64,000 nucleotides of DNA from Lepidurus packardi. Taxonomy: Eukaryota; Arthropoda; Branchiopoda; Notostraca; Triopsidae. The translations under genes were made by a program, and so were the position numbers. Below are positions 24,194-61,300 of this stretch, in pieces (position 1 is the stretch's first letter; the number at the start of each line of letters is the position of its first letter). Location of the stretch: NCBI GenBank assembly GCA_023053545.1, contig JAKZAN010000001.1, forward strand, positions 12,416,024 to 12,480,023, in the 5' to 3' direction. Below the pieces are notes generated by a model. That model worked only from the letters and a program-made list of their open reading frames with translations, was not told where the DNA came from and searched no databases.

Positions 24194-24699
24194 TGTTCCC
24201 AACAATGCCGTCTTGACTTATCCACGCGCTTATGACACTGCGGAACAGGGAATCTCTTCTTTGCCACGAAATATTGGAACACAAAGAAGCCAAGTCTTTA
24301 TCTTATTTGATAATTTGATGTATTGTCACGTTCTGCTCTCTTTCATGCTAACTCTCACTTTCCGTTACAACAATCAAATTTTACATTGAAGAAACGAACT
24401 GGCTTATGGTAAGGTCAAGCATGAACTGTTCTTACAGGCTGGGTGCAGGGGATTTCATTCTTTCTAATAATGAATTTTAGGATTCGTGGTTGAGAGGCTA
24501 CCAAATTTAACTGTTGGGCAACAATCAATGTCACAGCATTTTACCACCACAGGGACCATACATGGGATATTAAATCTTAATTTACAAGTTCCGGGTTTAT
24601 TCTCAAAAATTCTATATAGTAAGGGTATTCATAGGAAAATAGGAGACAATAGGAAAGGGAGCTCTTGAGAAAAAATCCCTTTCGGCTTCGTCCGGAACA
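24194..24699 (-). repeat. 3' LTR of the BEL/Pao element
   Basis: 506 bp, nearly identical to 30,593-31,098. The ends TGTTC and GAACA form the short inverted repeat expected of an LTR. GTGTC directly precedes it on the plus strand. Confidence 0.93.
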
Positions 24700-27600
24700 T
24701 AGCCGGCCCTGTTATTGCTCCGCGATAACATCTTCTGTGTTAGCTATATTTAGTAAGCACAATTTGTGTACTGGACGTAGCATTTCTCCGGAGTTTGTTT
24801 TGACCGTTGCTACACGAACTATTCCGTCTTTGCCAGGATGAGTCTCGGTTATTTTCCCCATGGGCCAATGTCCTCGAGGAGAATTTGTATCCGCTATGAG
24901 GACTATGTCGTCTTTTTTTAGGTTTTGTCTTGACTTGAGCCATTTACGGCGTTCGATAAGATTTGGCACGTATTCCTTGAGCCATCGCCTCCAAAAATGG
25001 TTAATTATGGCTTGCGAAACTCGCCATTTTCGTCTTGATAGTTTCTCATTCGGATCAACAATGTCAGGGGGGATGTTAGCATACGCCCCTCCGAGCAGAA
25101 AATGATTTGGAGTCAAAGGTTGTGGATCGTTAGGATCGACACTGACATGAGTTAATGGTCGGCCATTTAAGAGAGCTTCGACTTCGACTAAGACTGTTTG
25201 GAGGATTTCTTCGTTAGTGCTTTGGTTTCCAAGCACGGCCTTTAAAGCTCTTTTGGCAGATTTGATTAAACTTTCCCATGCACCTCCGAAATGAGGGGCA
25301 GACGGTGGGGAGAACTGCCAACTTATTCCTTTAGCAGTTAGAGCGTTAGCGATCTTTTCTTGGTTCCAAGCTTGGATACCGGCTTTCAATTCTTTCTCGC
25401 CACTTGTTAAATTAGTTCCGTTGTCAGAAAAACACTTGTTAGGGGTTTGTCTGCGACTTGTGAACCGTCGGAAGCACATTAAAAATGAGTCCGTGTCTAG
25501 CGATCGGGCGAGTTCTAAGTGGACTGCTCGTGTGGTGAGGCAAGTAAATATACAGCCCCATCTTTTCTCGGTACTTCGCTTGACGGTTACGTACATTGGG
25601 CCGAAGTAGTCAATGCCGGTAAATGTAAATGGTGGTTGATAGGGTGTCAGACGAGCAGCAGGAAGTGGTGCCATTAAGGGTGCTACTGGCTTTGCTGTGC
25701 GTTTTCTACAAATGAAGCACTGGTTATAAGTACCTTAGCCACCGTTGCTCGTCCCTTCAAAACCCAAAATTGGCTTCTAACTTCATGAAGTGTGCGTTCA
25801 ACTGACGCGTGAAAGATTTTCTTGTGCGTGTCTTCAATTATTAATCTTGTTAGTCGATGATTGTTGTCTAAAAGGATAGGATGTTTGGCTGTAGGGTCTA
25901 ACGTGCAATTCTCAAGCCTCCCACCGACACGCAGAACGCCACTTGCGTCAATAAATGGGGTTAACTTAGTTAATCTGGAGCTGTTTACTATGGGTTTATC
26001 TTGGGATAAGTCTTTGATTTCGTTACCGAAGCATTCGCTTTGCGTAATTTTGAGACATAAGTGAAAGGCGTTTTCAATTTCTTCTGAGAGAAGCGTTATG
26101 CTAGATGAAATCTTGACCTTCTTACAGGCGTCAACGAAACGTAGCACAGTGGCGACAACGCGTTTTGCTTTGAGTAGAGTTGGTGCTTTTTGAATGTACT
26201 CTGAAACGGGAAGTTTTTTAATTGATACAGTGCCGACCCAATTTTCTGAGATAATTTCTGGATCAGTTTCACACGGTGGATCTGGTTCTTCGGGCTTAAA
26301 TGGTTGCAGTTTGAGATTAGGCTCCTTCAAAAATTTTGGACCGCTGAGCCATCGAGCTCCTAAGGTAATCTCGCTTGCATTTAAACCACGGCTACAGTCG
26401 TCCGCGGGATTGTCTTTTCCAGTAACATGATGCCACTGTATGGAGCAGGTTGTTTCCAAAATTTCTCCAATTCTGTTGCCGACGAAAACTTGGAAACGAC
26501 AGGTGGTTGAGTATATCCACTTCAGAACCGCTTGGGAATCCGTCCAGAATACTACATGTTTAATGTTCATATTTAACTCTTTACAGCAAGCAAGGGCTAA
26601 GCGAAGTCCTAATACTGTGCCCTGTAATTCTAAACGGGGAATCGAGACAGGTTTCAGGGGGGATACCCTTGTTTTGGCCATTATGAACGCCACGCTTGGT
26701 GCCTGGTCTGGATACGTGTGACGGATATAGGCAACGGCGCCAAAGCCACGCTGTGAAGCATCCGTGAAAACATGCAGTTGAGAGTGTGTAGGGGGTGAAG
26801 GTGATCGGAAGCACCGAGGTATCTCTAATTTTGAAAGTGTAAAGAGCTCGCCAGCCCATTTTTGCCAGCGGTTGAGGATGTGAGGGAGGAGTGGTTCGTC
26901 CCAACCTATGCCCGCTCGCCAAATATCCTGGAGAAGGATTTTTGCGGTGAGCACGAAAGGGCTGAGAAATCCAAGGGGATCGTAGACGGTTGAAACTAAG
27001 CTCAGGATTTCTCTCTTGGTGGTTACTTCTTGAGGGGTTTTGAAATTGAAGTGGAAGGTGTCTAATTCACAATTCCACAAAATGCCAAGTGTTCTTTCGC
27101 TTGGAAGCTTGTCTAAATCTAAGTTGAGCACAGGATCATTTCTCTCAGGAACTGGAATTGCGTTCAAAACCTTGCGTGACGACGACATCCATTTTGTTAA
27201 TCGAAAGCCCCCACGCTGCAATAAATGCATAAGTTCCAATGAGGTCTTGATTGTTTCTTGTTCGCTGTCCACCGAATCTAAATAGTTGTCGACATAAAAA
27301 TTGGTTTTGATTTTCTTTGCGATTTCCGGAAATTCATCTTTGTTGTCCGTTGCGGTCTTGCACAAAGCATTTAGGCATATGGAAGGTGAGGATACCGCAC
27401 CAAATACATGAACTTGCATTTCGTACGTTTCTGGTGTCACACCGCTTCCGGGTCTTCTCCATATAAAACGAAAGGCTGACCGGTCGTCTTCGGTAACCAG
27501 TACTTGATGGTACATTTTCTCGATGTCGGCCGAAATTGGGACCGGGTTTCTTCGGAAGCGTAAAAGAACGCCTAGTAAATTAGTAAGGAGGTCAGGGCCC

Positions 27601-30592
27601 TTCAGAAGGTTCTCGTTAAGGCTTGTGCCAGCATATTTCGCAGAGGCATCAAATACGACGCGGACCTTGTTGGGTTTATGAGGATTGTGTACAGCGTGGT
27701 GTGGAAGGTACCACGTTTTACCCTTTGGGCCTTCTAGATGGTTAATCGGTACTTTCCGTGCATGACCTAGTTGAATGTATTCGTCGATAACCTTTATGTA
27801 TTTTTCAGCTAGTTCATGATCTTTCAATAGCTTTCGTTCTGTACAGAAGAAACGTTGAATGGCTAGTGCTTTGTTGTTCGGCATCTCCGGGTTTGACTTC
27901 TTCCACAGAAGGCCGCTTTGGTAGCGATTGCCCACGTTGAGAGTAGTGGCTCTTAACAAATAATTTGCTCTTTCGAGATCCTTTCTGGCAGGGATCTTTG
28001 TTTGGTCAATTCCTAACGCATCCGTCTTCCAGAAGTTACTAACCAGTTCATCCAGTGTCACGCTGTCGGATACGATGCTAATTAGATTTACTGAATGATT
28101 TTCTTCATGTGCTGGATGATATGGTATTTGCCCAATAGCACACCATCCAAATGGAGTCAGTACTGCCCATGGTCCATTGGTACCTGCAGGCGGTTTATGA
28201 GTTTTGAGTTGCTCGTGTGCTTGTGGGATGTCTGCTCCAATCAAAACCGTAACTTTGCTGGTGTTGATACTTTTCTTTTAAGTATTTCCATCTTTTCTTT
28301 TCTTGAGGCCAATTGATGCACCGATCGGTAAGGTTAATGCGGGGAACAGTCGAAACGTTCTTCATCTCCATTACTTCACCATTCGTGCAGCTGCCAATCT
28401 TAAAATCTACTGTTCTGCTCTTGAATAAGGGGTCTTTACCATGGAACGTTCCAAAGCGGGCCATTTTCGTAGGTCCTTTCAAACCGATCCTTTCGGACAT
28501 ATCTTCAGTGATAAGCGACACTTCGCTTCCGTTATCGAGGAGGGCAAAAGTTTCGATAGTTTTGCCACTCGCGATTATTTTAATTGGGATCACCGACAGT
28601 AAAGTTACTTGACCAGATGAGGCTCTAGTCATGGTTCCAATGTGGCCAGCAGAGGATCCTGTATTTTCACTATCATCGCTTGAAGTGGTAGGGTTTCGGT
28701 TGTCTCTTTCATAACGCGTAGGATCATGTAGCAAAGCATGATGTTTTCGCTTGCATTTCCCTATTCCACACACATCTTTATGACGACACTCCTTGGCCAT
28801 ATGACCAGCAATCAAGCAGTTGAAGCATTTTTTGTCTTTTTGTACAGCCGTTACTCTGTCTTTCAGTTGAAGACACTTAAATATAGGACAGTTGTATAAG
28901 CGGTGTTCTTCTTTGCATAGGGTGCATGGGTCAATCTTTCTTCCACTCTGAACGATCGAGGTCGTCAAGACAGTTGTAACGCGCTCTTTCCTATGGTTTA
29001 GTCTACTGCGATCCGAATGGGATTCCTCGATAGGCTTATGCTCAATTTCAGAAAAAGGCTGTACGGTAGCTTCTCCCATGATGAAATCATTTAACCAGGC
29101 AGCAAAATCGAGTAAGGTCGGAAGTCGTTGCAGCTTAATTGATTCTTGACCCCACATATGTTTAATTCTACGTGGAAGCTTGTCTCGAACGTTTCTCAGC
29201 AAGGATGGAGAGTACAGGTCCTGTTCGTATCTTGAGGCTTGAAGAGTAGCTATCGTTCCATTAAGGTCAGCGTAATATTTTCTTAGCGACTGCTGGATAA
29301 GTCATGATCCTTTACAGGTATAATTTTCAACAGGTCTTCGACGTATGCTTCAGAAACCGCCATTGGGTTTCCATACAATTTCTGTAGTTCACGCAGGGCG
29401 TGCATATACGTGACAGGGCTTTGCAAATACTGAGCGATGGTGTTCCTTACAGTGGGAGCCAACAACTCGCGGAGATACGTTATACGTTGTGCATCATCGC
29501 GTAATGCGTCGTGAACTCGACTCTTAAAATTGCCGATAAAAATGGGCCAGTCTTTCGGATTGCCAGTGAAAGATTGAAGTTTAATTTGTGCCAAATGTTT
29601 GACATTTTCTTGCGGTCTATTTTCGGCCGTAACCGTTGGTTTGTCTTCAAATAGCCATGCATCTGGAGTATTCTTGATTTCCCTTTCAGCAGGTGTAGTG
29701 GGAAGATTTATTGGTGTTCGCGTTAACCAATCTGGAACTCCGTTTTGCATTTTCAATCCGTGGTAGTCGATTGCGGGCTCAATTCGTCGAGTATTATGAC
29801 AACTTCGAACTCGGGACCTAACAGGACTTCCGTCTTCTTCGGATTCTTCTTGTAAGATGTCTGCTTCTTGACGAAGTCTCTCGATTTCCATCTCTCGCAA
29901 GCGTCGTTGTTTAGTAATCGCCAAGTTTTGCTTTAATTCTTCAAGTCTTGCTTCTGCTTCTTTAATTCTTTGTTTGCTTTCCGCTTCAGCTTCAACTGCG
30001 GCTTCTATCTGCCTAAGTTCCGACTCGGCGGACGCGAGACGCAACCGAGTTTCCTTTAGCCGTGCATTAGAAGTACCGCCTCTCGATTCTGAACGGTGAG
30101 ATTTGCTTGCAATTGATGAAGGCGGGTGAGACGCAACAGACGAAGGTGGCTCTCCGACCCGTGAGAGAGGTAGTTTTCGATATTAACGTAACATGCAAAA
30201 ACTTCCTTTTCGATAAACGTGTAATATTTTTCTATGGTCTTCTTCTGTACGTCTTCAAGCTTGCGTGTGGCAATGAATCTTGCGTTCAATTCGGCGCATT
30301 CATTTAGACACGACGCGAGTTGTTTGCGTTGCACTGCTAACGCACTTTTACTGCCGCGGTTGACGATGTGCGCAGAGATTTCTTCAATTAAATCTAAGGC
30401 TTCTTTCTTCTTTTCTGACCTCAATTGCTTAAGTAAGCGACCAGCTTCTGTGAGTTCTTGATCGTTGTTATCGTCTTCTTGTACGGCGGCTGCCGCTACG
30501 GCTTCACATCTTTGTGACATGCTGATACCACAACCAAATTATCCAAAATTATGACTTACGGTTTCGATGAGTTCCCGGTCGATGCACCATAA

Positions 30593-31098
30593 TGTTCTCG
30601 CCAATGCCGTCTTGACTTATCCACGCGCTTATGACACTGCGGAACAGGGAATCTCTTCTTTGCCACGAAATATTGGAACACAAAGAAGCCAAGTCTTTAT
30701 CGTATTTGATAATTTGATGTATTGTCACGTTCTGCTCTCTTTCATGCTAACTCTCACTTTCCGTTACAACAATCAAATTTTACATTGAAGAAACGAACTG
30801 GCTTATGGTAAGGTCAAGCATGAACTGTTCTTACAGGCTGGGTGCAGGGGATTTCATTCTTTCTAATAATGAATTTTAGGATTCGTGGTTGAGAGGCTAC
30901 CAAATTTAACTGTTGGGCAACAATCAATGTCACAGCATTTTACCACCACAGGGACCATACATGGGATATTAAATCTTAATTTACAAGTTCCGGGTTTATT
31001 CTCAAAAATTCTATATAGTAAGGGTATTCATAGGAAAATAGGAGACAATAGGAAAGGGAGCTCTTGAGAAAAAATCCCTTTCGGCTTCGTCCGGAACA
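30593..31098 (-). repeat. 5' LTR of the BEL/Pao element
   Basis: 506 bp, the partner of 24,194-24,699. The few differences are mostly clustered at its left end. GTGTC follows at 31,099-31,103. Confidence 0.93.
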
Positions 31099-33492: not shown

Positions 33493-33767
33493 CTTCACTG
33501 TGTTTCGCATGTTAGCTAGCAATTGTAGCGTAGTGCCTTATAGTGTAGTTCTTCTAACCCGGATTAATTATTTAATGTAGTTCCTCTTAACCTTGGATTA
33601 GATTTTTCAGTAAGGTTATTTTTTATTGCATTCTGTGTTTCCCTTTGACTTTTGTTCTGTTCTGTTCTGTTCTTCTTTAACCCGGATTATTTTTTTTCCT
33701 CTTAACCCTGGATTAGATTATTTGACTTTTTTCTTCTAACAGATTAACCCTTTCTCTCTTTACTAAT

Positions 33768-36741
33768 ATGAGTAAATCAAGGGCGCAGTTTTTTAAAAAT
33801 TGTCTACGCGATCTTGAACGTAGAGCAAATTTGCCTGCGTCGGCCTACGATAGTTCTTCAAGAGCGCCCATACTGATTAGTAACGAACATTTTGAGAAGT
33901 TTAGGCAGGCGTGTTTTTCAAAGAAAACAGAGTTCGATGCTTACCCTCTCCCGAAGCGTATGGCAATATGGCAATCTCAGAGTTTTAATATTGACCAAAT
34001 TGACACAACTGCTTCCAGTACTTTGCCCGAGCGTTTGAGCGAATGTTTAGCTTTGTGCAGCAATGGAGATGGGAATTGTTTCTACAATTCCGCTTCTTTG
34101 TCTTTGTTCGGCAACCAAAGGCATGCCGTTGAGTTGCGCTGCCGAGTTGTGGTCGAATTAGCAACCAATTATGAGTTGTACTCCAGGGAGTCGGCAGGAT
34201 ACCTCTCGATGAAACAAATTGGAACCCTAGTCGAGTACTCAGGATTCACTTTCGACCGTGTTAAATTCACGGGCGTTGACTCAGTGTGCCCTACAGGTAT
34301 TCCACCGGCGGAAGACTGTTTTAAGTACTATTCCATGGAACACGCCAGGGATCGGGAATATTCGAGCATTATTGCATTCCCAGCTTTGGCTAATGTTTGT
34401 AAGATAGCCGTGGAGTCAGTTTATCCGAAAGCGGATGGAATCAGAGCATCTCATCAAGCGAATTTTTTAAACGAGACGTTTTCACCAAGCGGTGCCGTTT
34501 CCTCTGAAACTATTCGAATTTTGTGGACTGGGCTTTTGGCAAACTTCACGAAGAAGGAAAATGGACGTTTAGTCCCTCCAACATCCTGGAATCCCAATCA
34601 TTTTGTGCCTGTGATTGAGCGTGCTAGTCAGTCACCCCTCTTTTTGTCAGAGAACTGCACTCTTCCGGTTCTTGATGTGGTGGAAACTGCGTCAGTTATT
34701 CCCAGTCATCCAATTGAAACTGCAAATGTGATAACACCTGTTGCAGTTTCTTTTTGCAGCTCTATGCAAAATAGTAGTAGCGCTGTTAGTTCAGGGCTTC
34801 GCGAGTCGTTCTCGCATGAAAATTCAAGCTCAGATTTTGAATTGTCTGTCCCAAAAGCTTTTGCCGCAAATAATGGAGAGCACGAAGAAAATGTCACTAA
34901 AGCCATTTCATCGAATGGTAAAACACCTGGTGTGAAGTCAGGCAGAGTAGTATCTCATACCAAACAAGGGCCTTCAAAATTTTCGTGCAAGGGATGTGAA
35001 ACTACGTTAAAAACAAATCAAAATTTGGAGAATCACATTAAAAACAAGCGCTGCAAGTTTCAGCTAGGAAAACAAAGCTCTAGTCAAATTCTGCTTGCCG
35101 AGCAAGGATCTAAGGGCTTTATTTGCGAAGACTGTAAAACCGTTTTCACAAGGAAGAGCACTTTAAAGGTGCACATAGAAAAGAAAAGATGTAGCAAGTC
35201 TAGTTTTGAGTGCCCGCAGTGTAGTTTGCAGTTTTCTAGAACAGACATGCTCACCCGTCATGTAGAATTAGTTCATTCTCTTGAATTAGGCTCTAGTCAA
35301 ATTTTGCTTGCCGAGCAAGGATCTAGCGGCTTTACGTGCAAAGACTGTAAAACCATTTTCACAAGGAAGAGCAATTTGAAGTTGCATATAGAAAAGAAAA
35401 GATGTAGCAAGTCTAGTTTCGAGTGCCCACAAGTGTAGTTTGCAGTTTTCTAGAGCAGACATGCTCACCCGTCATGTAGAATTAGTTCATTCTCTTGAAT
35501 TAGAAGAAACACGTACTTCTGAGGAGATCCCCTTAATTGGCCCGGTAGACAAGGAGCATTCCTTAAACGTGATTTCAGTTGACAAGCAGCAATTGCACAT
35601 CTTAGTCGAGTTAGATCAGTCAGAGCCGACTTACGACCCAGTAATAAATTCTGCGTTTCAGAGCAGTGTTAGTGGTAGCGTGTCTGCTGATACCATTAAT
35701 TGCAGTACTTTAGTCATCGATTCTGACGACGAATTCTGTAACGTTGCTAGAAAAAAGAGAAAGCTCGAACAGCTACCAAGAATAATTTGCTATCACCCTG
35801 GTTGTGAAGAGAAGCTGTCACGCCTGACGTCTTATGTTGAGCATGTTCACGATAAACATGGTTTGTCCTGCCAGCTAGAGGAATTCAGTTTTTGTAACGA
35901 GAACAGTTTCATGTCGTGGAAAACAGAGATAGAAAGAAATGCTTGTGTTAGTTTTCGTAATCGAAGGGGAGCTCGGAAGTGCACTAGTTACAGTACAACA
36001 ACCTACGTGTGCAATCGCTCTTTCTCGTATAAAAATCAGGGTACAGGCAAACGTGCCCTGAAGCGACTAAAGTCTTGTTGTACGGGTGTCCATTGTACCA
36101 GCTTTATAATTGCGCAAGTATGGCACCTTACAAAAAGAATTGAGGTTACATGTTGCCTAACTCATGTTGGCCATGATCGTTTACCAGGTCGGTTGGCAAA
36201 CATTCGTAGAGACTTGCGCGAGATTTTTAATACGTTAACAACTGATCCTGGAACCATCCGTGATTTGGAGATTGCTGTGGCTACAGCAAGACTTATTAAC
36301 AGTAGACCACCAGAGGAAAAGATAGTAAAAGAGACGTTCGAAAAATTAACCGACGTCCGTTCTAATGCCAAATTTATACCTCAAAGAGAATTTCATAGGA
36401 CGCGCAAGCCGTACAGTAACAAACCATCGAATGCCTTTCAGAGACATGGATCTCAGGATCATCCTGCCGACGTTTTAGATGACATCGTACCGCAACTCTG
36501 CGCTGGTTGCAACAAACGAAATGATCCCGATGACGACCTTGATGATGATATTACTTGGGTTTGTTGCAGTGTGTGCAAATCTTGGTTTCATATAACTTGC
36601 GCTCACAAGCAGCAGCCAGATTTATGCCTAAATGATATACCAATGGACGACTTACATGACATTCAGTACCTATGCCTTGTCTGTGTTAATGAAAGGCATA
36701 ATGTAGTATTGCTTTGCATTTCGCAAAGCAATACTAATTAG
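33768..36741 (+). CDS. Transposon-encoded OTU protease, C2H2 zinc-finger and PHD protein
   Basis: The first part (33,768-35,438) has an N-terminal OTU cysteine-protease domain. The catalytic Cys is in GDGNCFYNSASL (34,068-34,103) and the His in NPNHFVPV (about 34,594-34,617). OTU enzymes cleave ubiquitin or related peptide bonds. Tandem C2H2 fingers follow (34,984-35,500). The second part (35,440-36,741) continues the fingers, then has a Cys/His cluster near 36,075-36,175 (SCCTGVHC ... CCLTHVGHD) resembling the WRKY/GCM1-type zinc domain of MULE and FAR1-like transposases. It ends with a PHD finger (36,493-36,690, CAGC ... CCSVC ... H...C ... CLVC). The coding region is split into two abutting frames, and the junction lies in the second copy of a duplicated finger unit. 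No transposase catalytic core is visible. Whether any protein is made is unknown. Confidence 0.7.
35077..35502 (+). repeat. Tandem duplication of a two-finger coding unit, period 213 bp
   Basis: The unit starting at 35,077 (SSQILLAEQGS, one finger ending IEKKRC, then FECPQC...H...H) repeats at 35,290, 213 bp or 71 codons later, with high identity. The duplication adds two zinc fingers. Confidence 0.85.
36704..36736. repeat. Perfect 14-bp hairpin ending just before the stop of the element's gene
   Basis: TAGTATTGCTTTGC (36,704-36,717) and its exact reverse complement (36,723-36,736) are separated by five bases. The hairpin is the last coding sequence of the PHD-containing frame; the stop TAG is at 36,739-36,741. 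Confidence 0.9.
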
Positions 36742-41739: not shown

Positions 41740-43262
41740 ATGGAGGTACAAGTAGTACAATCGGTAGTTCCCGTTATTCACATTGAAGTACTAAAGAAGG
41801 GGCAAAGGTATAATATAGTAATAAATCTGATGTCTATTCCTTTAAAATTACAGAAACGCTTAACACATTAATTTATTTATTTTCAGTCAGGTCCCTAATG
41901 CTGAATTGCGAGAGAAAATTATGAAATACATTTCCAGCCTATTCATTTTGGCTCCCCCTGCACAAATCATTCCAAACTCTGCCATTCAGGATGATTTTTT
42001 ACAAGAACATATCAAGAGAATCATGATTTCCCAGCCAGACACTGCAACTGAAGTCTCTCCCATGTACGAAGTTCATGTCTATACCTTAGACGAATCAGGG
42101 TTACAGACAGAAGAGCTGGATGAAAGCGAAGACATCTCCTCTGCTGGTCATTGGATCTTACCATCAGCCGAGTTTGATGGCTTATGGGAATCGTTGGTGT
42201 TCGACGATGCGATCAAAAGCAAACTCCTCAACTTTGTTTCGACCACTTTATTGTTTTCAGACCGTGGCGTAGACGCTTCGTTAGTCAATTGGAATCGTGT
42301 GGTTTTGCTGCATGGACCTCCTGGCACGGGCAAAACGTCCTTATGCAAAGCATTAGCCCAGAAGTTGACTATCCGGCTAAGCCATCGTTACAAATATGGC
42401 CAGTTGATAGAAATTAACAGCCATAGTCTCTTCTCGAAGTGGTTCTCTGAGGCAAAACTTCCTTAAATTTTACAATATTGAAATAATATTAAAACAATCA
42501 TTTTCTTTTTTAGAGTGGGAAACTGGTTCAAAAACTATTTACGCAAATCCAGGAACTCGTAGATGACCCCAACACTTTAGTATGTTTACTAATGGACGAG
42601 GTAGAGAGTTTAACACGCGCTCGTCAATCAGCGTTAAATGGTACTGAACCTTCGGATGCTCTCCGCGTTGTTAACGCTGTGCTTACACAAATTGACCTCA
42701 TCAAACGGTAATGCAAATGAATCCAGTGAACGCAATTTGAATGTAGGTCAAAAGTCAGAAGTTGATAAAAGTCATTTTTGTACAGATTTCCAAATGTGCT
42801 GATTTTAACTACCTCAAATGTTACCGAAGCTATTGACCTTGCATTCGTGGACAGGGCAGATATCAAGCAGTATATCGGATTGCCATCCCCTCGTGCCATT
42901 TACCAGATTTACGTCAGTTGCTTAGAGGAATTATTACGGGTTGGAATTATCACTTCTACGGAAACATTCGTTAGAGAAAGCGAAATTGACGGCAGTAATC
43001 TTGTAAGTCCAAGCCATGTGTTATGGACTATTGCTGGGTAAGACTTGTCAAGCATTTAAATGCCATGAATATGTAAGAATAATAGGTTTTATTCCTTTCC
43101 AGAAAAAGTGAAGGCCTAAGTGGGAGGACGTTACGTAAACTACCCTTTCTGGCCCACGCGTTGTTTCTGCAAGCCCCTAGTTCAGACATGGGTTCTTTCC
43201 TAATTGCATTAGCCAAAGCTGTGAACCAGCAATTCGTCGACCGAAAGCAACTCAGCTTATGA
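41740..43262 (+). CDS. TRIP13: PCH2/TRIP13 AAA+ ATPase
   Basis: AAA+ remodeller that converts closed HORMA-domain proteins (meiotic HORMADs, MAD2) to the open form. It acts in meiotic checkpoint control and spindle-checkpoint silencing. Five exons (41,740-41,807; 41,887-42,451; 42,514-42,707; 42,786-43,037; 43,103-43,262) give 412 residues, near the family's usual 430. Walker A is [16 protein letters not shown], followed by [18 protein letters not shown]. Walker B is LLMDEVESL. Sensor and C-terminal lid sequence follow ([36 protein letters not shown]). The second intron uses a GC donor (GAG|GCAAAA), which the conserved SESGKLV join requires. The ATG opens [10 protein letters not shown]; a transposon end lies 240 bp upstream. 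The next gene starts only 390 bp downstream. Confidence 0.95.
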
Positions 43263-45731: not shown

Positions 45732-48491
45732 TCAAAGACGAACTTGCTCTAATTTTTGCATCAATTCATGACTTTTGTCGCTCCGACTGTCCCCCATAAG
45801 ATCGTTGACATTGATAGAAGGCGTGACTGGAGGGGTAATAGGCATACGGGAGGCTCTGTTGGCAGACGTACCAGCAGCGTAAACATGAGAAGATGCAGCC
45901 GAAGTTGAAGACAAATTGGGCGATATGAATCCAGGCTGATGGAACCGATGGCTGTCACGGGCCAAACGAATGGGCGAATGTTGATCCAGAATCAGGCGTC
46001 GCTTAGTGTGCAGGGTACCCGCACGCGGCATTGATGCGACGTGACCATAGTTAATCTGTTCAGGATAGGAAAGGGTTTCGTTAAGGTTCAGATTCAAGGA
46101 AGACTGGGACGACGTAGGCGAAAAAACTAGCTTCTGGGACGGACTCCACCGCGGACTATTGCTCCTGCTAGCACCCACGTTAGTCAGCTGCTCCGAGGAA
46201 TGCCGGTAGTGATTCCAAGCGTAAGAATCCAAAGCAGCTCGACGGCGACGATCGCGTTCTGGCGAATACTCACGTAACCCACCTCCACCACTGCCGCCAC
46301 CACCATTGCCGCCACCATTGCTGCCACCATAGCCGCCACCATTCCAAGGCATCTCATTCCACGGCATGTTTTCATGATTCCAGCGCTGGGAAGGAACCCG
46401 GCGGGCCGGGGCATTGGGCGGAGGCAAAATGGGCATCGCGGGAGGAGCACAGTTGCTAGATTTGGGGGCTGTTAAAAGCGATTCGCTAGCATGCAAGTAA
46501 TACGGACGCTGATGCGAATACTGTGAAGTCGATTCATTGCTCAAGGACACATGCTCGCCAGTATTGCAGTTTGGCTTGTTGCCAGCATTACCACCCTCCT
46601 ACGAATGACAATAAGCAAGCCAAGGCAACAGTAAAAGCAGGGTTTGCAGAAAGAATGCAAAGAAAAAAAGCGCAAGCTTCCAACAAGACACACATCCTTT
46701 ACGACAGTTGCATGGCAAGTTTAGGAAAGACCCATAAGCGCATGTATGATATGCAAAAGTAACTCGCTGGTTAAATTTAAAAGAAAAATAAAAAAAATTG
46801 CGAAAGTAACTTACTTGATTCGGATCCACAGGCACCAAATTCGCAAAAGAACCTTCCATAGAATTGGGAGTGGTCGGTGAGGTTAGATAAGCAGGCGTAC
46901 CAGTCGTAGGATCGCTTACCATAGAAGCACCATGCATTGGATTGCCAAAGTACAAGTATTGCGTCACTGGGCTGGCCTAAAGTTACAACAAGATTTTATT
47001 ATTTTTTTTATTCATAGATCTTATTATTATTTATTTGTTTATAAATTTATTTATAGTTATTTTATTTTACTATTTCTAAGATTTTTATTAGAAAGCATAG
47101 AAGTCTTACATGGCGGTAACCGGGCACCCACTGCCATTGCGCGCCTGGACCCCATTGCTGATGATATTACGAAAAGATTAGTTTTTTTTAGAACTTTTTT
47201 CTTTTTAAGGGGATTAACAGGCTATGAAGTACTTACTGGGGCGCTGTACGGGTATTGCTGGAAGTAGACAGGAGGCACATGCATGTAAGGATACGGGGTA
47301 GAGCCCGCTGGCCCCGTATAGTAAGCCGTAGCCATAGGGATTTCACCGGTAAGCATGGGAGGCGGCAGAGCTGTAGGCGGACCTGACGTTGCGGCTGCCG
47401 AAACTTCACTCTGGGAATGGGCACGAGACGGCAAGGGACCTGTTGGCGTGGTAGGCGTACTCATAACCGACGACACTGCGCTAGGCGAAACGGGCGTGGT
47501 CACTGGATACAAGTAGGGCATGCTGTTGTAATAATTGGGGTAAGCTGGCGACAAGGACGTAGTTAACGACTCCAAACTACGACCAATGCCCTTTGACAAG
47601 AAATAAAAATGACATGATATTATGAGAACGAGTGGACTGGCGGCTATAAGAAAAATTTATTACTATTACTTGCTTTCGCACCGCTGGGGCAACGTTCAGC
47701 TTGCGCTCTCGCAACACGATCACTTGGCTCTACAAAGTCGAATATTACAATACATAAAGTATAAACGTGATGTAAGAAATAAAGTAAAGAAAAAGTAACG
47801 AAAAAAATAAGACAAAAAGACAAAATGAAGAAAAAAAGTAAAAATGAAGAAAAGAAATGAGCAAAAATAAATAACAAGTCGAATATTATAGTACATAAAG
47901 TATTAAAAGTATCATTATTATTAATATTAAACGTAATATTAAAAAGAAAGAAAAAAGAAAGAAAAAATTAGAAAACGAAGAATAAATAAGGAAAAAGTAA
48001 GAAAATAAGAAAGAAAGTACTTACAGATGCAATCTTGAGTAGTTGCTGGACTTCATCTTCATTGTCGAACGTAACAAAACCGTAGCCTTTGGATAATCCG
48101 ACCCGATCTACGATGATTTTTACGGTACGCACATGGCCATAGCGTTCAAATAAAGTTGCTAACTCGTCTTCGGTAGCGGTCGCCGACAATCCGCCAATAA
48201 AAACGCGATTAGGGACCAAAGTACCATGCTTGGGAAAACTATTGCAGTTAACCGGGACAGGGACTAAAGCAGTCGTCATGCCTTGTCCGGATCGCGATAC
48301 AGTCAGCAAAGGAGGCGACGTGGCCGACTCGGAAAAGCTGGACGAAGTAGAACTCTGCGTTAAAAGATAGAAACATTGTTAACATCGCAATACAAAGGTT
48401 CAACTTTTTGGATTTTTTTCTCCACGTCCACACAACCCCAATGTACATCGAGTGGGTCGTACAAAAAGCCTACAGCGAATAACCTTACCAT
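45732..48491 (-). CDS. bol: Boule/DAZ-family germline RNA-binding protein
   Basis: DAZ-family translational regulator needed for meiotic entry or progression in germ cells. It acts in the cytoplasm on mRNA 3' UTRs. Seven exons join in phase 0: 48,491-48,489 (ATG only), 48,354-48,025, 47,729-47,670, 47,590-47,237, 47,157-47,110, 46,976-46,815 and 46,598-45,732, for 607 residues. The single RRM begins RVFIGGLSATATEDELATLF; RNP1 is KGYGFVTF and it closes with VIVLRERKLNVAPAVRKQ, a boule signature. A Y/P-rich region with PNYYNSMPYLYP and QWGPGAQWQWVPGY follows. The last exon adds 289 residues with a glycine run (WNGGGYGGSNGGGNGGGGSG) and S/R-rich sequence, making this much longer than the 230-300 residues usual for boule. 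The ATG-only first exon is inferred from its GTAAGG donor. Confidence 0.9.
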
Positions 48492-50430: not shown

Positions 50431-53400
50431 ATGCTTAAAGTACTGTATTCGTTAAGCTGGTTGTGCGCAGTCATTGCTGCGCAAACTGCAGATAAACAAG
50501 TAAGGCTAATATTCCTTTCATGAGAACCTTAAGTGACCCAATTTTAAAACTAAAGCTATCTAAATCACCCTGAAATATCGTTTCTAGGAGTTTAATGTTG
50601 TGCACCAAGAGGGAAGAAATAAAGTATTGGTTTCTGTTGAAGTTGACCTATCCAAAGAAACCGTTCTGGCGAGTCCGCGTCAAACAAACAAAGCCTCACT
50701 AACGACATTCTACGATTTCGAAAACGTATTACCTCAATTTCGTAATCAAATTGAATTATATCACTATTTTATTAGCATGTTGCTTTGTATAAATCTGTAA
50801 GTGGAGCAATCTGCTACGTGGAACGCCTGGAAGACGACGACGTTCATGCAGAATTGATATTGTTGCAAAAATTGAACGGCGTTATCGTGCGCGATGCTCC
50901 TCGCACTCTCTACGTTGCCAATTCGTCGTTAACAAAATCAGAAGTATAATTTCGCAACCCAACCCTACTAACAAGCTTTCTTACAAACTTGTAACATGAT
51001 CTTAGGTCGAAGCACTCGGAGGTGAAAGGTTGCGCAAGTTTTGCAACGGTAAGGAGATGCGTATGCTGGTAAACGAAAACCCTTTGGATAACGGCTATGG
51101 CGTACAAAGTATGTACACTGATGAAAACAGACAAGCTTTTTAACCTAATAAATCATGACGACTCTTAACAGAACGAAGCAAGCGTTCGGCGCCAGTGCGT
51201 CGGCGAATCCAGACGCAAGTTCATGCGCAAACATCGCCAAATGTCGACGGTCAGCCAGCTCCAGAAGCCTGGGCCCTCGCCTCACCCGATGCAGCAGTCG
51301 CCCGCGTGGGTAAGTGCTCCCGAACTTGTCAGATCATAAAAATAATAAATAAAATAAAATGGCACGATCTTTTCTTTTTGCTTCCACCCACTTTAAACCA
51401 GGCGGTGGATCAGGTTACGCACAAGCTCAAAGTCACGTGACGGTTGAAACAGAGCACGAAAGCGGGGCCAAAGGTATCCGACGTATGTCTGCCTCTAGTA
51501 GTATGTATAACAGTGGAGGCGGGGACTCCGCGGGTCGAATTATCCCTCCAGCTATTGCTGCCGCAGGCCTATCCGCTGGGAATAACAAAGGATTTGGGGG
51601 ATTCGACTCCGCTGGGTCCGGTTCAGCTGCTGGTTTCTCAAATTTTGGAAGCTCCTCTTCCAGCTTTTCTTCCAGACCGGCCGGATCGGGTCCCGTGTCT
51701 GGTTCAAAGACTTATCGTTACAAAGTCGTCTATCCGAACGGGTATCAGTCTACCAGCTGGTACACGGGTACGGCTGATGGCAGCCGTGGAGTCGTAGAAG
51801 GACCCCTGGTGAGCTCCGATCCACTTCATCTTACTGCTCCTGGTAGCTCAGGTGGAGAAGCGCAAGGAGGTGGTCCCATTTACGGCGCGTCGGCGCAGAA
51901 AATTAGCAGCGAATTTCATACTATAGGCGTAGGTGTCGGCCATTCTAGCGGAGGATTCACTCCCGAACGAGCTCACCAACAAGCTCAGCAAACACTTCAG
52001 TCGTCAAGCTCTCAACAACACGGGTTTGGTATTTCGTCAATTAATGACAGCGGTAAGCAAACTGCTTACCAACAGCAATTCCGCGGTCAGGCTGGAGATC
52101 AGCAGGTAATAGGAAGCATGGACAGAAACGACGAGCCGGTTTATAGACAACCTACGCGGTCCCAAGTGTTGCAGTCTTTTGCCTCTGAGGAAGAAAGAGT
52201 CCAAAGCTCTCGAGGCCAACAACCCCAATACCCAGCTTCCTCCCAATCAGCGGCTTCTTTGCAATACCCGTCCCGCTTGCTGCAACAGCCCCAAGGCTAT
52301 TCCAGCCATTCGCAACAATCACAGGGTGACATCCGCTCCCACGGTAGCTACCCCCAGACACAGCAGGTTAGGCCTCAACAAACCTTCGTCCAAACATCAG
52401 AATCAGATTCAACTAGCTCACGAGACTCTCAACAGCAACATGCTGCTCAATCTCCAGGTTATCCGCAACAACCCTTGTACGGAGGTCAATCCCAACATCA
52501 ACAGTCGGTCGCTTCTGGTTCGAGGACCACTGCAACACAAGAAGTAACACATTCAACGACCGCTAGGGCTTATCAACCTCAACCTCAAAGACGCCCAAGC
52601 ACCCAGGGCACTGTCGGGCAGCAACAACCAAGCTACGGATCAGCAGGCTTGGATTCTCAACACCAAGTTCCCCAAACCTTGCCTCAGCAGCAGATTTACG
52701 CGCAATCCGGACTAGAAACATCTCACCAGACAGCCCAAACGTTACCAGCACGCGTACCCCAACAACAGACCTACACGCAATCAGGCTCCGACGTGTCTCA
52801 TCAAACTGTTCAACAATCAAGGGTTCCCCAGCAACAGACGTACACCCCAACGACTTCGGACGCTTCTCATCAAACGTCACATGGACGAGTTCCCCAACAA
52901 CAGACGTACGTACAGACAGGATCTGGCGTATCTCATCAAATGTCTAATGTACGAGTTCCTCAGCAGCAGACATACATACAAACAAGCTCTGATGTAGCAC
53001 AGCAATCGGGACAAACCTTACCTTCCAGAGTACCCCAACAGCAGACGTACACCCAAACGACTTCGGATGCGTCTCAGCAAACGTCACATGGACGAGTTCC
53101 CCAACAACAGACGTTCGTCCAGACAGGACCTGATTCATCTCATCAAACGGTACAAACTTTACCTTCCAGAGCACCCCAGCAACAGACGTACACCCACACG
53201 ACTTCGGATGCGTCTCAGCAAACGTCACATGGACGAGTTCCTCAACAACAGACGTACGTACAGACAGATTCTGACGCATCTCATCAAATGGTTCAAACGT
53301 TACCTTCAAGAGTACCCCAACAACAGACGTACACCCAAACTAGTTCAGGTACGTCTCAGCAAACGTCACATGGACGAGTTCCCCAACAACAGACGCACGT

Positions 53401-55579
53401 ACAGACAGGTTCTGACGCTTCTCATCAAACGGTTCAAACCTTACCGTCAAGAGTACCTCAGCAACAAGCGTACACTCAAACAGGATCTGACGCATCTCAC
53501 CAAGTAGTCCAAACCCAGCATGTCCGAGTGCCCCAACAGCAAACGTACATTCAAACAGGCTATGATGAATCTCAACAAACGGTTCAGACGCTCCCTACCC
53601 GAGTTCCCCAGCAACAAACATACGTGCAAACAGCAGTAGAGGGATCTCAGCAAACCACTCAATTGTTACCCTCTCGAGTACCCCAACAACAAACATACGT
53701 ACAAACATCCCAGCAGCAACTGCCGGCTGGTCATTTGGTTCATTTCGGTGGGCAACCCGGCCAACCTGGTCAACCCGGCCAACCTGGTCAACCTGGCCAA
53801 CCCGGTCGAGCTCCTCAGTACCAGCAGACTTTTAGCCTTCAAGGTGACGGAAGCGTTCACTCCCAGTCCCAAACCCATCAACAAAATGTCCAAAGTCAAT
53901 ACGATGGTCAAGTAAGTCAGATCTCGTCGAATGATGGGTCCATTCAGCAAGGTGTGCCGATAGGCTCTCTCCAGTACCAGCCCACTCCCATTCAAATAAC
54001 TCAACAGCAATCGGTTCATGTATACGGTTCTCAAGCCGACAGAACCTCACCGCATGTCCAACAGGGTGCCAGGGTGCCCCAGCCGCAGTATTTACCACAG
54101 CAAGAGCAGACCAGAGGCGCGGGCACCTTTCAGCAAAACTTGGTACAGACTTATCAGTCACAAGATGGCCAGCAAACGTTACCTGGGCATTTGCCACGTC
54201 ACCCTGCACAAGCTCTCACGCAGCCTGGTGTTGATTCCACGAGAATTACTCAAACGCAACAAAGTCCTTCTCATGGAGGACAAGTCGGTTCAGTAGCCTC
54301 CCCATTGGGGCAACCCCAGCAACCGCAAAGACAAGGTGGGCAACAAGCTGAGCAAACCTACACTGATTCTCACGAGGGACAAGTTCCTCAACGCGTTCAA
54401 CAACCCAGTCAACCTGGTTCTCATTTGCTCATGTCTGCGCATTCCATGCACATGGAAGAATCCGACATGCTGCAAATGCAACCTCACGAACCCGAACAAG
54501 AATTGACCGATACCCAACCCGGTTTTATCCCACGTCAATTGCATTACCGACCGGCTCCCCAAGCTCAAGCGCAAGTGCAAACTCAAACACAGCAACAGGA
54601 GCCATCAGCAGGCCATATTCAGGTGACCACGTCTGATGCTGGTCGCCATTCTACCCGTCCTTTGCAAGTCCCTTCGCAAGGCGAAGTGATCCACGAGGAG
54701 AACGTCAGCATCGTTCGTGGCTCTAACGGAAGAGATCAACAATCCAATGGCGGCCAACTCGTCCTCCAGCCAGGAGAAACGGTTCCTGGCACGCCGTACT
54801 CGGTCCCTAAAGGATTCCGCGGTACGGTAATTCAACAAACCGTTCCTAACACTGGTGCCAGTTCTACGACTTTGGAAACCGGACCAGGTTCCGCTTCTGC
54901 AAGACCTCAACATTCCTTGGGCTTCATTGGAACGTCCACGTTGATTCCCACCGGCCGAGCTGATATCCCTCCCGATTTCGAAGCTCCTACCGATTACCGC
55001 CGTCGTCCCCAGACAAATCGCGTTCAGCCCACGCAATCCGGTAGTTCCACCCGGGTTTCAGGCTCGGGGCCCACGTCTGCCCCTAGACAAGAAGATATAC
55101 CCAGTCCACAAGAACTGGCCGCTGCCGAACAGACCGATGAGGATTACGAATATGCGCCGGAAGAAGACGGACCTAGCGAGGATGACCTTTGTGACGGTTC
55201 GCCCAACTGTAGTGGTTCCGGACCTTCTGTTACCACGACAACCGTCATTCGCCAAACACCCGTGATGGCCATTCCGATCCAGCAGTCGCGCCCGTCTTCG
55301 TCCCAATCTGCTATGGGCGCGAATGGAAAACGCATGCATCAAACGTTTACGCAAACACAAATGATTACTTCCCATGGGATGGGTGGCAATGGTTTCGCAG
55401 TTCAATCGCCTTCAGGTTTAGTAAGACCAATTGGCACAAATGGAAATGGAAACGGAAATGGTTGCAATACGGTTAAAGTGTCCTGTCAAGTCGCGCACGG
55501 CCCAACGCAAAGAGTGCGCATTTGCACACCGCAAATTACTCCCAGCTGCTGCTGCGATATCCAGTGCGGAGCCTGCTAA
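50431..55579 (+). CDS. Secreted BRICHOS-domain protein with Q-rich tandem-repeat region
   Basis: Six exons (50,431-50,499; 50,588-50,725; 50,776-50,943; 51,006-51,108; 51,172-51,309; 51,402-55,579) join in phase to 1,597 residues. MLKVLYSLSWLCAVIAAQT is a signal peptide. Residues about 55-140 read as a BRICHOS domain: TTFYDFENHVALYKSVSGAI, then CYVERL, later GGERLRKFCNG, with the two expected cysteines (82 and 138). BRICHOS domains are intramolecular chaperones that stop aggregation-prone regions of the same proprotein from forming amyloid. A furin-type site RSKR (161-164) follows. The rest is one 4.2-kb exon: G/S-rich, then very Q-rich with about 15 RVPQQQTY repeats (nt 52,680-53,720), GQP triplets (53,750-53,806), and an eight-cysteine tail ending SCCCDIQCGAC. 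I know no named orthologue. A secreted fibre, cement, egg-coat or cuticle-matrix protein is plausible but inferred. Confidence 0.8.
52680..53720 (+). repeat. RVPQQQTY tandem array within the BRICHOS/Q-rich protein
   Basis: About 15 units begin with (R)xPQQQ(T/A/I)(Y/F/H). Units alternate between 22 residues (ending TSHG) and 25 residues (ending TLPS). At least three consecutive pairs form a 47-residue, 141-bp higher-order repeat. Within a unit, a Q/T/Y-rich strand-like half alternates with a SDxSHQT half. Variation between units is moderate. Confidence 0.9.
53750..53806 (+). repeat. GQP collagen-like triplet run
   Basis: Six successive Gly-Gln-Pro triplets plus a final glycine, in frame, immediately after the RVPQQQTY array. 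Too short to make a collagen helix alone. Confidence 0.9.
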
Positions 55580-55668: not shown

Positions 55669-55674
55669 AATAAA
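55669..55674 (+). terminator. Candidate poly(A) signal of the BRICHOS gene
   Basis: AATAAA 90 bp after the stop codon. From 55,675 to 56,037 nothing else is recognised. Confidence 0.55.
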
Positions 55675-56037: not shown

Positions 56038-56434
56038 ACAAGGACGACTCAACAAAAGGACTACAGTGCACCCAACTTAAGGACTACAAACCCCGACTTA
56101 AGGACTAAGAACACCGACTTAATGACTTGGTTAGGTTAGTACAGGTTAAGTTAGTACTAGATTAGGTTAGGACCAGGTTTGGTTAGAACTGGGTTAAGTT
56201 AGGTTAGGGGTTTGTAGTCCTTAAGTCGGGGTTCGTACACTTATAAAAAGGGTACCTAAAACAGTTATATAACGACATGCTAAAATTAGTAGTTACTATT
56301 TCAAGGTGGGTACCTCTCCCCAAAGAAGGTTTTAAAGAAGCCCCTATCTGGTGTCCTACTTTTTCGGGGCTTTTCTTCCCCTATTAAAGGGGGAAATTTT
56401 TAACAGTGTAGTCCTTTTGTCGAGCCGTCCTTGT
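56038..56434. mobile_element. Foldback-like TIR element carrying TTAGG-like repeats
   Basis: 31-bp inverted ends (56,038-56,068 and 56,404-56,434) match at 28 of 31 positions and begin ACAAGGACG. A second nested inverted pair lies inside: ACTTAAGGACTACAAACCCC near 56,083-56,102 against its reverse complement at 56,207-56,226. Between these arms are degenerate GGTTAGG/GGTTAAG repeats (56,128-56,210) related to the arthropod telomere repeat. Non-coding; no clear target duplication found. Probably a MITE or foldback element. Confidence 0.65.
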
Positions 56435-58362: not shown

Positions 58363-61300
58363 TTACAGAGTACTTATGACATTTGGTGTAGTTTGCGTGC
58401 TGTTGTCGGAGTCAGGACTTGAAAGCGGCAAGGCAACAGCCCAGACTGTTATCACCCCATCTGTACCCATTCGCGGTTCAAGTACAGTAGGGTTGGTGGC
58501 CGTAATATACGCACTGGCCTGGGCAGCCTGGGCCATGAACTCCTCTTTCGCTGGCGCCTTTGTTGGTGGTGATTGTGGGTCTTGCATGATTAGTTTCTCA
58601 CGAGGTACCCTCGTATTCGTGTCGCTAGACATGTTCGCCGGTTTGGGTTTATTCGCCTTGGAAATTTTGGGTTTTGATGTCAGGATTGTTATCGCGGTTT
58701 TGTTTTGTGCTGGCTTTAGCTGAATCCGTGGGGCAGGGGTAGCGGCAGGGGCTTGAGTTGTCTGTTTCACCACGGTCTTGTTCTGCGCGACGGGGGCGGG
58801 TTTAGGGAGGGGCTTAACGACAGGACTCTTTCGCGGAGGTGAGTCCACAGCTCGGGCTCGGGGAGGGGCTTGCGTAAGAGTATCCGGCGAGGGATGACCG
58901 TGGATACGGATTGTGGGTCTCAGTCTGGTCGGGGGAAGAGGTGGCGGTGCTTCGGCTTGGAAATTAAAACTATCTGGGTCGTCGAAGATTGGGACCTGGA
59001 AACTACTAGGTTTGGCGTGAGCAGGGATGAAAGGAGGCTGATGTTCTTTCACAATGGGGTGAGTTATAGTTTGAGGAGGGATAACGATGATAGGTCCGTG
59101 GTCCCGGGGCGGAAAGAACAAGTCGATTGGCTGGGTATGTGTCGGGAATTGAGGTTCGTGGAAAAACAGGTTCTGATTATTCCGAAAGGGTTTTGGACGC
59201 GCCAAGTGTGGGCCCCTAAATGACGACTCATCCTCGAAGCTATTCGAATGGACCGAAGGACGCTTCAACGGGCGAAGTCGTTGACCAAACGCGCTATTGT
59301 GCGGCCGTCTTAGTGGGTGCAAACTACCGCCTAATCCCGAGTGATATGAGGTATCTGATGAGAAAGGTTTCTTGTTATGAGGACGGAAAGGTGGGGGATT
59401 GAAAACAATAGGACGCTCATCATTGTCGTCGTTATTGATTTGAGGTCTATGTGGACCTTCGATATCCGAAAAATCTTCGTTAACTTCGGTTGGAAGATGG
59501 GAATTTTGTTCGTGATTTGATGGATTCGATGGATTTCGGAAGAGCGGCCTGTCTTCCCGCATCGGTGCACGGTTTTCTTCTTCTCGATTGTTGGATGGGC
59601 GTATTTTCGGTCGGGTTTTACCGTGACCCTTTTTAGGAAAAGGTGGCGGATTGAAGACGATAGGCCTGTCGCTCGGATCTTCATTGCTACCTGAAGAAAC
59701 AACGTGTTGTTGAGGGCGTGGTACTTTTACCCTTGTCGGGGGTTTCTTTGGGAAAGGTGGTGGGTTAAAGGTTATCGGTATGTCTACATCTTCTTGACTA
59801 GGTGAAACGGTTCGGGGACGTGGCTTAGGCGTAGTAGTTCGTTCAGGAACGGGTGCTGCTAAAATCACTTGTCGAATGGGCTCCTCTTCGTCATTGGTGA
59901 AGTGAGGGCGTGGTTGAGGAGAGAGGAATGGACCTCTGAGCCCTGGGATGTTTGGCAGCGGCGTTTCTCGATTCAGAAAAGGTCGACTGGGGGTAGTAGG
60001 ACGTTCGAAATCCTCTGTATTGTCGAAAGGATACTGCAGGAAGGGCAAGTCAAGTGGAGCAACGGGCGTTGTATACTGAGGTCGATTGCCGTTACCAGGC
60101 GTTTCGTCATTATTGTAGAACTCTAGTGGTTTCGGACGTTTCTTTTGTTTCAAACTAGATTTCTCTCCTGGAGAATTCTGCTGAGCAATGCTATGTAGAC
60201 CGTAAAGCAAAGCTGTAGCTTCATCATATGCGGCAGGACGAGCGGGGTCAGAGGGCGGGTCTCGTTCTTCCGGTCGTTTCACTACGTAATTTGGCTGACG
60301 ATGGAATTCGGTTTGCTGTTTCTCGGGGTTGAAAAAGGGGAAAGTGGGTTCAAAAGGGGGACGGTATCGTCCGGCAACTGAAGGCTGGTACTCGACGGAC
60401 TGAGTCGGCTGACGTACAACTGGTCTAGGTAATGGGGCATAGTCGGAGTACGGTTCCGTAGTGGTAGAGTACCGCTCCGGGGGTTCTGGGTAAGAAGTGT
60501 ACTGAATGCGAGCATTTGATTCAGGCGCCCTTCCTTCTGAATGATACACGGGTGGCGCAGGTAATGCGTGAGAATCGTCTAATTCATCAGGAAACTTCCA
60601 GCGTGATGGAGACCGGCTTTCGTACGAATCCGTTTGTAAATCCGTCACTGGAAGAGGTGTTGTAGGTTCGTACCGAATATGGGCCTTGAAGCCGTCGTCG
60701 TCAGCATGGTACCGAACTATTTGCCAGCGTCCATCAGGCATCAGAGTGCGGTAAGTTCCTTGGGTCGTCCCATCGTCCTGCCACGCTCTTTCGTGACTAT
60801 AACTTGCAGACCCAGGTTCTGTCACTGCGTAGCGAAACTTCTGTAACAGCAAGATTTTCAAGTCAAGATTTATTTGTTCTTTTAATAAAATATTATTCGA
60901 AAATGCTAATGTTAAAAGATTGCACACGAATCGTGAGGTAGAAAGTGACAACAAAAATACCGTTATATAGTGTATGCTCAAGCACTCCTTGGGCAACTAT
61001 CGTCTTAATTTGATAGTGCTGGAAGCAAAACCGCAGAGATATGGAAAGGAAAGTTCCTAACTGTCCTTCTATATAGATTATTAGGTTTTTCTTTGTCAAA
61101 ACTCGAGTTTTATGGGTTTTCAATTGTTGCACTTGGTCTGGCACCCGTGCGCGCGTGCGCGTGTGTAAGCATGTGTGTGACGTTCGCATGCGGTTGCGGT
61201 GTTGGATTTTGGATTAGTAGGCCCTTGCGCATGGGTTCTGTAATGGGCTATTAAACTAGCAAAGTTGTAATAGAGCATCCCATATAGTGCAGCTTGGCCA

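Follow-up and report, generated by a model that had tools for sequence, protein, structure and literature searches.

In a 64,000-nucleotide stretch of the Lepidurus packardi genome (contig JAKZAN010000001.1, forward-strand positions 12,416,024 to 12,480,023; hereafter the window), positions 50431-55579 of the + strand hold a six-exon gene whose spliced reading frame stays open for 1,597 codons up to a stop. With a little less than even confidence, we read its predicted product as a secreted proprotein of the BRICHOS type in which the C-terminal part has grown very large, and the mature chain of which would be a disulphide-linked structural polymer. We also propose, tentatively, that the BRICHOS domain could act as a built-in, cleavable chaperone for this giant secreted polymer, which would make the product a self-chaperoned arthropod biomaterial and its chain a client unlike the short peptides described for this superfamily. 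The odds that we attach to these and the other explanations weighed below overlap somewhat and are not intended to sum to one. Research on human disease has treated BRICHOS domains as chaperones that protect short peptides from amyloid formation. If the proposal is true, it would show an animal route to keeping a long fibre-forming protein soluble until use, would make it possible to test how wide a range of clients BRICHOS accepts, and might offer a tool for producing silk-like materials.

The N-terminal BRICHOS domain

The N-terminal domain very probably belongs to the BRICHOS superfamily. Residues 60-141 match the Pfam BRICHOS profile PF04089 over profile positions 4-87 (84 of 91). The score was 21.3 bits (E 3.2e-4) for a 223-residue query and 22.5 bits (E 1.4e-4) for a 142-residue query starting at residue 24. 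An initial annotation made from the DNA letters had proposed a BRICHOS domain here and had named the lack of a hidden Markov model match for residues 55-140 as a ground for refutation; the match obtained supports the proposal, with a score just below the curated cut-off. Since the Pfam gathering score for PF04089 is 25 bits, the domain would go unlisted under Pfam's own rule. The three conserved BRICHOS residues are in register as D66, C82 and C138, at spacings of 16 and 56 residues, compared with 16 and 59 for D144, C160 and C219 of ITM2A. These three residues are conserved throughout the families surveyed in 2009 (PMC2751770). A study with a larger set of sequences reports that 97% of single BRICHOS domains have this Asp, and links it to the domain's action against fibrils and toxicity (PMC9627735). 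In the BRICHOS fold a disulphide joins strand 4 to helix 2, a bridge that C82 and C138 would form here.

The domain is spread over three exons and flanked by features of a secreted precursor. Exon 1 (50431-50499, + strand, as for all features of this gene) supplies the start codon and a signal-peptide-like segment (residues 1-23), judged by inspection, with hydrophobic residues at 4-17. Exon 2 (50588-50725) encodes a 36-residue linker (residues 24-59), inside the 24-105 residues that lie between signal or anchor and BRICHOS in the 2009 survey (PMC2751770), and then the start of the domain with Asp66. Exon 3 (50776-50943) carries the core with the first conserved cysteine, Cys82, and exon 4 (51006-51108) the end of the domain with the second, Cys138, the match stopping at residue 141. 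In exon 5 (51172-51309), a motif search located the convertase consensus RSKR (residues 161-164), 23 residues past Cys138 and the sole R-x-(K/R)-R in the 1,597 residues; cleavage is predicted to occur after it, with the mature chain starting in the same exon. The hydrophobic start, the RSKR motif and the two BRICHOS cysteines of the initial annotation were all recovered in this way. Five family features have been given for OAF, namely a signal peptide, a convertase site, linked strands in the mature part, a disulphide in the domain and the Asp (PMC9714404); here we find the signal (by inspection), the RSKR site, the two cysteines and the Asp.

We consider it very unlikely that the domain is not BRICHOS and that the profile match reflects chance similarity. 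Such a view can draw on the two scores below 25 bits, and on a PDB sequence search with the N-terminal part that returned no BRICHOS chain at E up to 10. It would have to account for an E of about 1e-4 across nearly the whole profile, and for a D/C/C set at family spacing combined with a secretory start and a convertase site. It would also have to account for the controls, since a reversed sequence and eight shuffles gave no BRICHOS match in any of the nine at a limit of E 10, though HMMER filters remove most matches above approximately 0.1. One of these controls produced an unrelated match below the cut-off (DUF4819, E 0.063). Two candidates for the N-terminal part itself were set aside: a Pfam match to POC3_POC4 (E 0.12 and 0.18), which lay below the cut-off, and a weak and unrelated PDB match to phosphoribosyl pyrophosphate synthetase (E 0.18). 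NCBIfam gave no match for the N-terminal part or for exon 6, and tblastn with residues 1-205 (E up to 10) found no second BRICHOS copy in the window, matching only the same gene.

Exon structure and transcripts

All five introns are bounded by GT-AG, and their phases are consistent across all junctions. The introns are 50-92 nucleotides long with a guanine plus cytosine content of 22-35%, while that of the exons is 41-64%. Exon 6 (51402-55579) contributes 1,391 whole codons of the mature chain, rich in Q, S, G, T and P (one-letter amino acid codes), and the stop; the probability that its frame is open over 1,391 codons by chance, calculated from base composition, is about 6e-25. A polyadenylation-type AATAAA signal follows at 55669-55674, 90 nucleotides 3' of the stop codon. 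As read from splice signals and phase, the assignment of exons 1-6 to one transcript is supported, and the earlier placing of the first five exons and the 4.2-kb exon in one gene stands on the same sequence basis.

Intron 5 (51310-51401) is the point at which the gene could be divided. In that case exons 1-5 would encode a short BRICHOS protein and exon 6 would belong to another transcript, for example one read from an ATG within intron 5. The intron has AATAAA at 51344 and 51353, its ATG at 51359 shares the frame of exon 6, and reading through it would yield a short BRICHOS protein of 248 residues; a short isoform is therefore possible. Two separate transcripts as the sole products are nevertheless unlikely, and we assign this explanation a very low probability. 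The junction of exons 5 and 6 is in phase, with GTAAGT as its donor and CAG as its acceptor. The sequence AATAAA also occurs before exon 6 at 50618 (exon 2) and 51147 (intron 4), and in the introns it probably arises by chance, because these are A+T-rich. Moreover, the ATG of intron 5 opens without an evident signal peptide, yet the product of exon 6 ends in a cysteine cluster that appears to be of the secreted type.

The mature chain as a possible BRICHOS client

Past RSKR, the mature chain has 1,433 residues, including 9 Lys, 44 Tyr and 10 Cys. Its composition from residue 191 on is 18.1% Q, 12.7% S, 10.0% G, 9.5% T and 8.2% P, with 1.7% N. The initial annotation, which spoke of about 1,430 residues dominated by Q/T/S/P, was thus right about the length and about the richness in these residues, while it passed over glycine, which is the third commonest residue from residue 191 on. 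Exon 6 had no Pfam or NCBIfam match at E up to 1, and a PDB sequence search with residues 207-605 gave none at E up to 0.1. A charge-hydropathy test placed residues 300-1450 among unfolded sequences; the BRICHOS part, residues 165-300 and residues 1450-1597 came out among folded ones.

The chain is repetitive. Fourteen tandem units, each opening with R(V/A)PQQQ(T/A)(Y/F/H), lie at 52751-53713 (residues 656 to approximately 976). They recur every 22-25 residues, in part with alternating steps of 22 and 25; the periods in the DNA include 66, 75 and 141 nucleotides. Where about 15 QQQTY repeats had been announced, we counted 11 exact copies of QQQTY and 14 of PQQQ(T/A)(Y/F/H), so that the repeats are present and their number needs correction. 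The copies vary mainly at synonymous sites. Over all pairs of the 14 copies, the ratio of the nonsynonymous to the synonymous proportion of differences (pN/pS) was 0.19 for the 12-residue repeat core, a ratio of uncorrected proportions taken from copies that are not independent, with a synonymous proportion of 0.66 that is near saturation. For whole units, pN/pS was 0.30 among seven of 25 residues and also 0.30 among five of 22 residues, a comparison of 12 of the 14 copies in which the first and the last, being of different length, were left out. Within these limits, the repeat looks as though it is kept at the protein level.

The description of the chain as prion-like was not borne out. A criterion for such a label is at least 30 Q+N in 80 residues. 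In this protein the maximum is 26 and 30 is never reached, no run of Q is longer than 3, and N amounts to 1.7% from residue 191 on; on this composition the label fails.

The cysteines of the mature chain are confined to the region near its C-terminal end. The cysteine region (55190-55576) contains Cys1469, Cys1475 and eight cysteines in residues 1560-1597, which are the only cysteines past RSKR, so that all 10 lie within the last 129 residues (1469-1597). An eight-cysteine tail had been noted and is present, with the addition of the two cysteines ahead of it. Tyrosine occurs in most repeat heads and the chain is nearly free of lysine. With these features, its repeats and mature cysteines only near its C-terminal end, the chain would resemble structural polymers that are joined at their ends.

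Known BRICHOS proproteins use the domain to hold an aggregation-prone stretch of the same chain in solution, and proteolysis parts the two (PMC9627735, PMC9714404); the protein studied here has domain, site and segment in the same order. By analogy, the domain would fold in the endoplasmic reticulum and stop its own chain from aggregating too early, with the TYVQT-type repeats or the valine/cysteine tail as the part that it holds. Cleavage after RSKR by a furin-like protease would then free the chain, and the freed chains could link through their C-terminal disulphides, and possibly through tyrosine cross-links, into an extracellular material. In this scheme the Q-rich chain may be the aggregation-prone client. 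The product might be a silk, a cement, an egg coat or a gut lining.

The client could instead be the C-terminal cysteine/valine tail (about residues 1560-1597), an arrangement known from Bri2, OAF and worm antimicrobial peptides, with the Q-rich part serving only as a long flexible spacer or gel-forming chain that never makes fibres. The tail is a plausible alternative beside the Q-rich chain, although we judge this explanation as a whole rather unlikely. Disulphide-linked strands in the mature peptide are described as a common BRICHOS feature (PMC9714404), and residues 300-1450 were on the unfolded side of the charge-hydropathy test. Strand propensities were computed with Chou-Fasman values for seven regions of the mature chain. 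The tail holds two of the 12 best non-overlapping strand segments, but the repeat region holds three, including the top one; mean strand propensity is likewise highest in the repeat region (1.048 for residues 631-990), followed by the tail (1.033). By hydropathy, two of the 12 best segments belong to the tail, and the repeat array proper contributes none. A single-sequence AlphaFold model covering residues 1540-1597 has two strands, but at a mean pLDDT (the model's confidence score) of 54 it is too weak to count as evidence for a fold, and a PDB sequence search with the tail found no match at E up to 10. Furthermore, some 1,400 residues separate the tail from the BRICHOS domain.

In another explanation, which we find improbable, BRICHOS would be an inherited prodomain for secretion or sorting of this protein that hardly acts as a chaperone for the Q-rich chain, if at all. 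The weak sequence match to BRICHOS would agree with this, and a low-complexity chain of such composition could remain soluble unaided. What argues for an active domain is that all three conserved residues are kept, including the Asp linked to action against fibrils and toxicity (PMC9627735), and that a convertase consensus is found where one would be expected.

Several observations weigh against the self-chaperoned polymer that we prefer. The scores of 21.3 and 22.5 bits fall short of the gathering score, and the matched stretch of 82 residues is just below the 83-104 residues that BRICHOS regions span in the 2009 survey (PMC2751770). Part of the low pN/pS of the repeat core is a product of the search itself, since a protein motif inside that core served to find the copies. 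With Q+N below 30 in 80 residues, Q runs of at most 3 and a repeat array outside the 12 most hydrophobic stretches of the mature chain, an aggregation tendency is not demonstrated. Finally, the BRICHOS part had 30 pattern-matching stretches in the collection viral_contigs and 593 in genome_contigs, and exon 6 had 17 in viral_contigs, with none confirmed in any of these searches; as neither is a collection of animal genomes, this null result says nothing on orthologues.

Known systems and neighbouring features

Chondromodulin (LECT1/CNMD) has a convertase site, and it shares with tenomodulin (TNMD) a type II membrane anchor, unlike the protein described here, which has a signal-peptide-like start and no such anchor. 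As the 2009 survey describes them, LECT1 and TNMD resemble it in combining BRICHOS with a long, probably disordered insertion and with cysteines near the C-terminus, four of which are conserved in LECT1, TNMD and group C (PMC2751770). Likened by description, our protein is therefore best seen as having the chondromodulin/tenomodulin layout (BRICHOS, convertase site, disordered insertion and cysteine-containing C-terminus) with an enormous insertion of about 1,300 residues. The C-terminal regions in that survey span 29-149 residues, so at most 149, compared with 1,433 residues past the site here (PMC2751770). The precursors of the worm antimicrobial peptides arenicin, alvinellacin and nicomicin are also similar, being invertebrate and secreted, with a signal, a BRICHOS domain, dibasic-type cleavage and a C-terminal product (PMC6265681, PMC9714404). 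Their product, however, is a short peptide (the whole nicomicin precursor has 239 residues; PMC6265681) and not a 1,433-residue repeat chain. The BRICHOS mature products described in the papers cited here are short peptides, unlike this chain.

OAF (PF14941) shares the signal peptide, the BRICHOS fold (here predicted from the profile), the convertase site and a disulphide-rich mature part, which in OAF has four bridges and 70 residues (PMC9714404) as against 1,433 here. The PF14941 profile had no match at E up to 1 in residues 1-223 or in exon 6. Wheat glutenins and the Drosophila eggshell protein Dec-1, structural proteins with Gln/Pro/Gly repeats, have Q-rich repeats together with terminal cysteines or staged proteolysis. 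Their likeness to the chain described here is a working resemblance only, and we know of no BRICHOS domain in either.

The BRICHOS proprotein plan is itself already known; what appears new, as far as the sequence indicates, is a BRICHOS layout with a giant repeat chain. In the titles and abstract openings of the literature, with incomplete coverage, we found no arthropod or Q-rich structural BRICHOS protein of the same layout. A count of 3,355 BRICHOS precursors, insects included, with a 'group II' of unknown function (PMC9627735) leaves room for relatives that have been recorded but not studied.

Downstream of the gene, tandem repeats of 21 and 16/32 nucleotides at 56071-56203 include GGTTAGGTTAG motifs, which resemble the arthropod telomere unit TTAGG. 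Further downstream, past an inositol-phosphatase exon and on the opposite strand, an 877-codon frame (58366-60996, - strand) contains the insect-type cuticle domain Chitin_bind_4 (E 3.5e-9), which gives the neighbourhood an arthropod look. The domain is followed by a very long proline-rich tail with three copies of FNPPPF, and the product would be a cuticle protein of unusual size, encoded close to the BRICHOS gene.

Elsewhere in the window, two long frames overlap at 33726-36738. The first, of 570 codons, encodes C2H2 zinc fingers; the second, of 449 codons, matched nothing in Pfam at E up to 0.01. A BEL/Pao-type long terminal repeat retrotransposon occupies 24194-30988 on the - strand (Peptidase_A17, E 2.3e-52). 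It is flanked by direct repeats of at least 300 nucleotides that lie 6,399 nucleotides apart and are 99% alike, so that the insertion is probably recent. An AAA ATPase exon at 41864-42463, with a TRIP13_N match below the cut-off, and an RRM protein at 45735-48378 (- strand) would fit germ-line genes.

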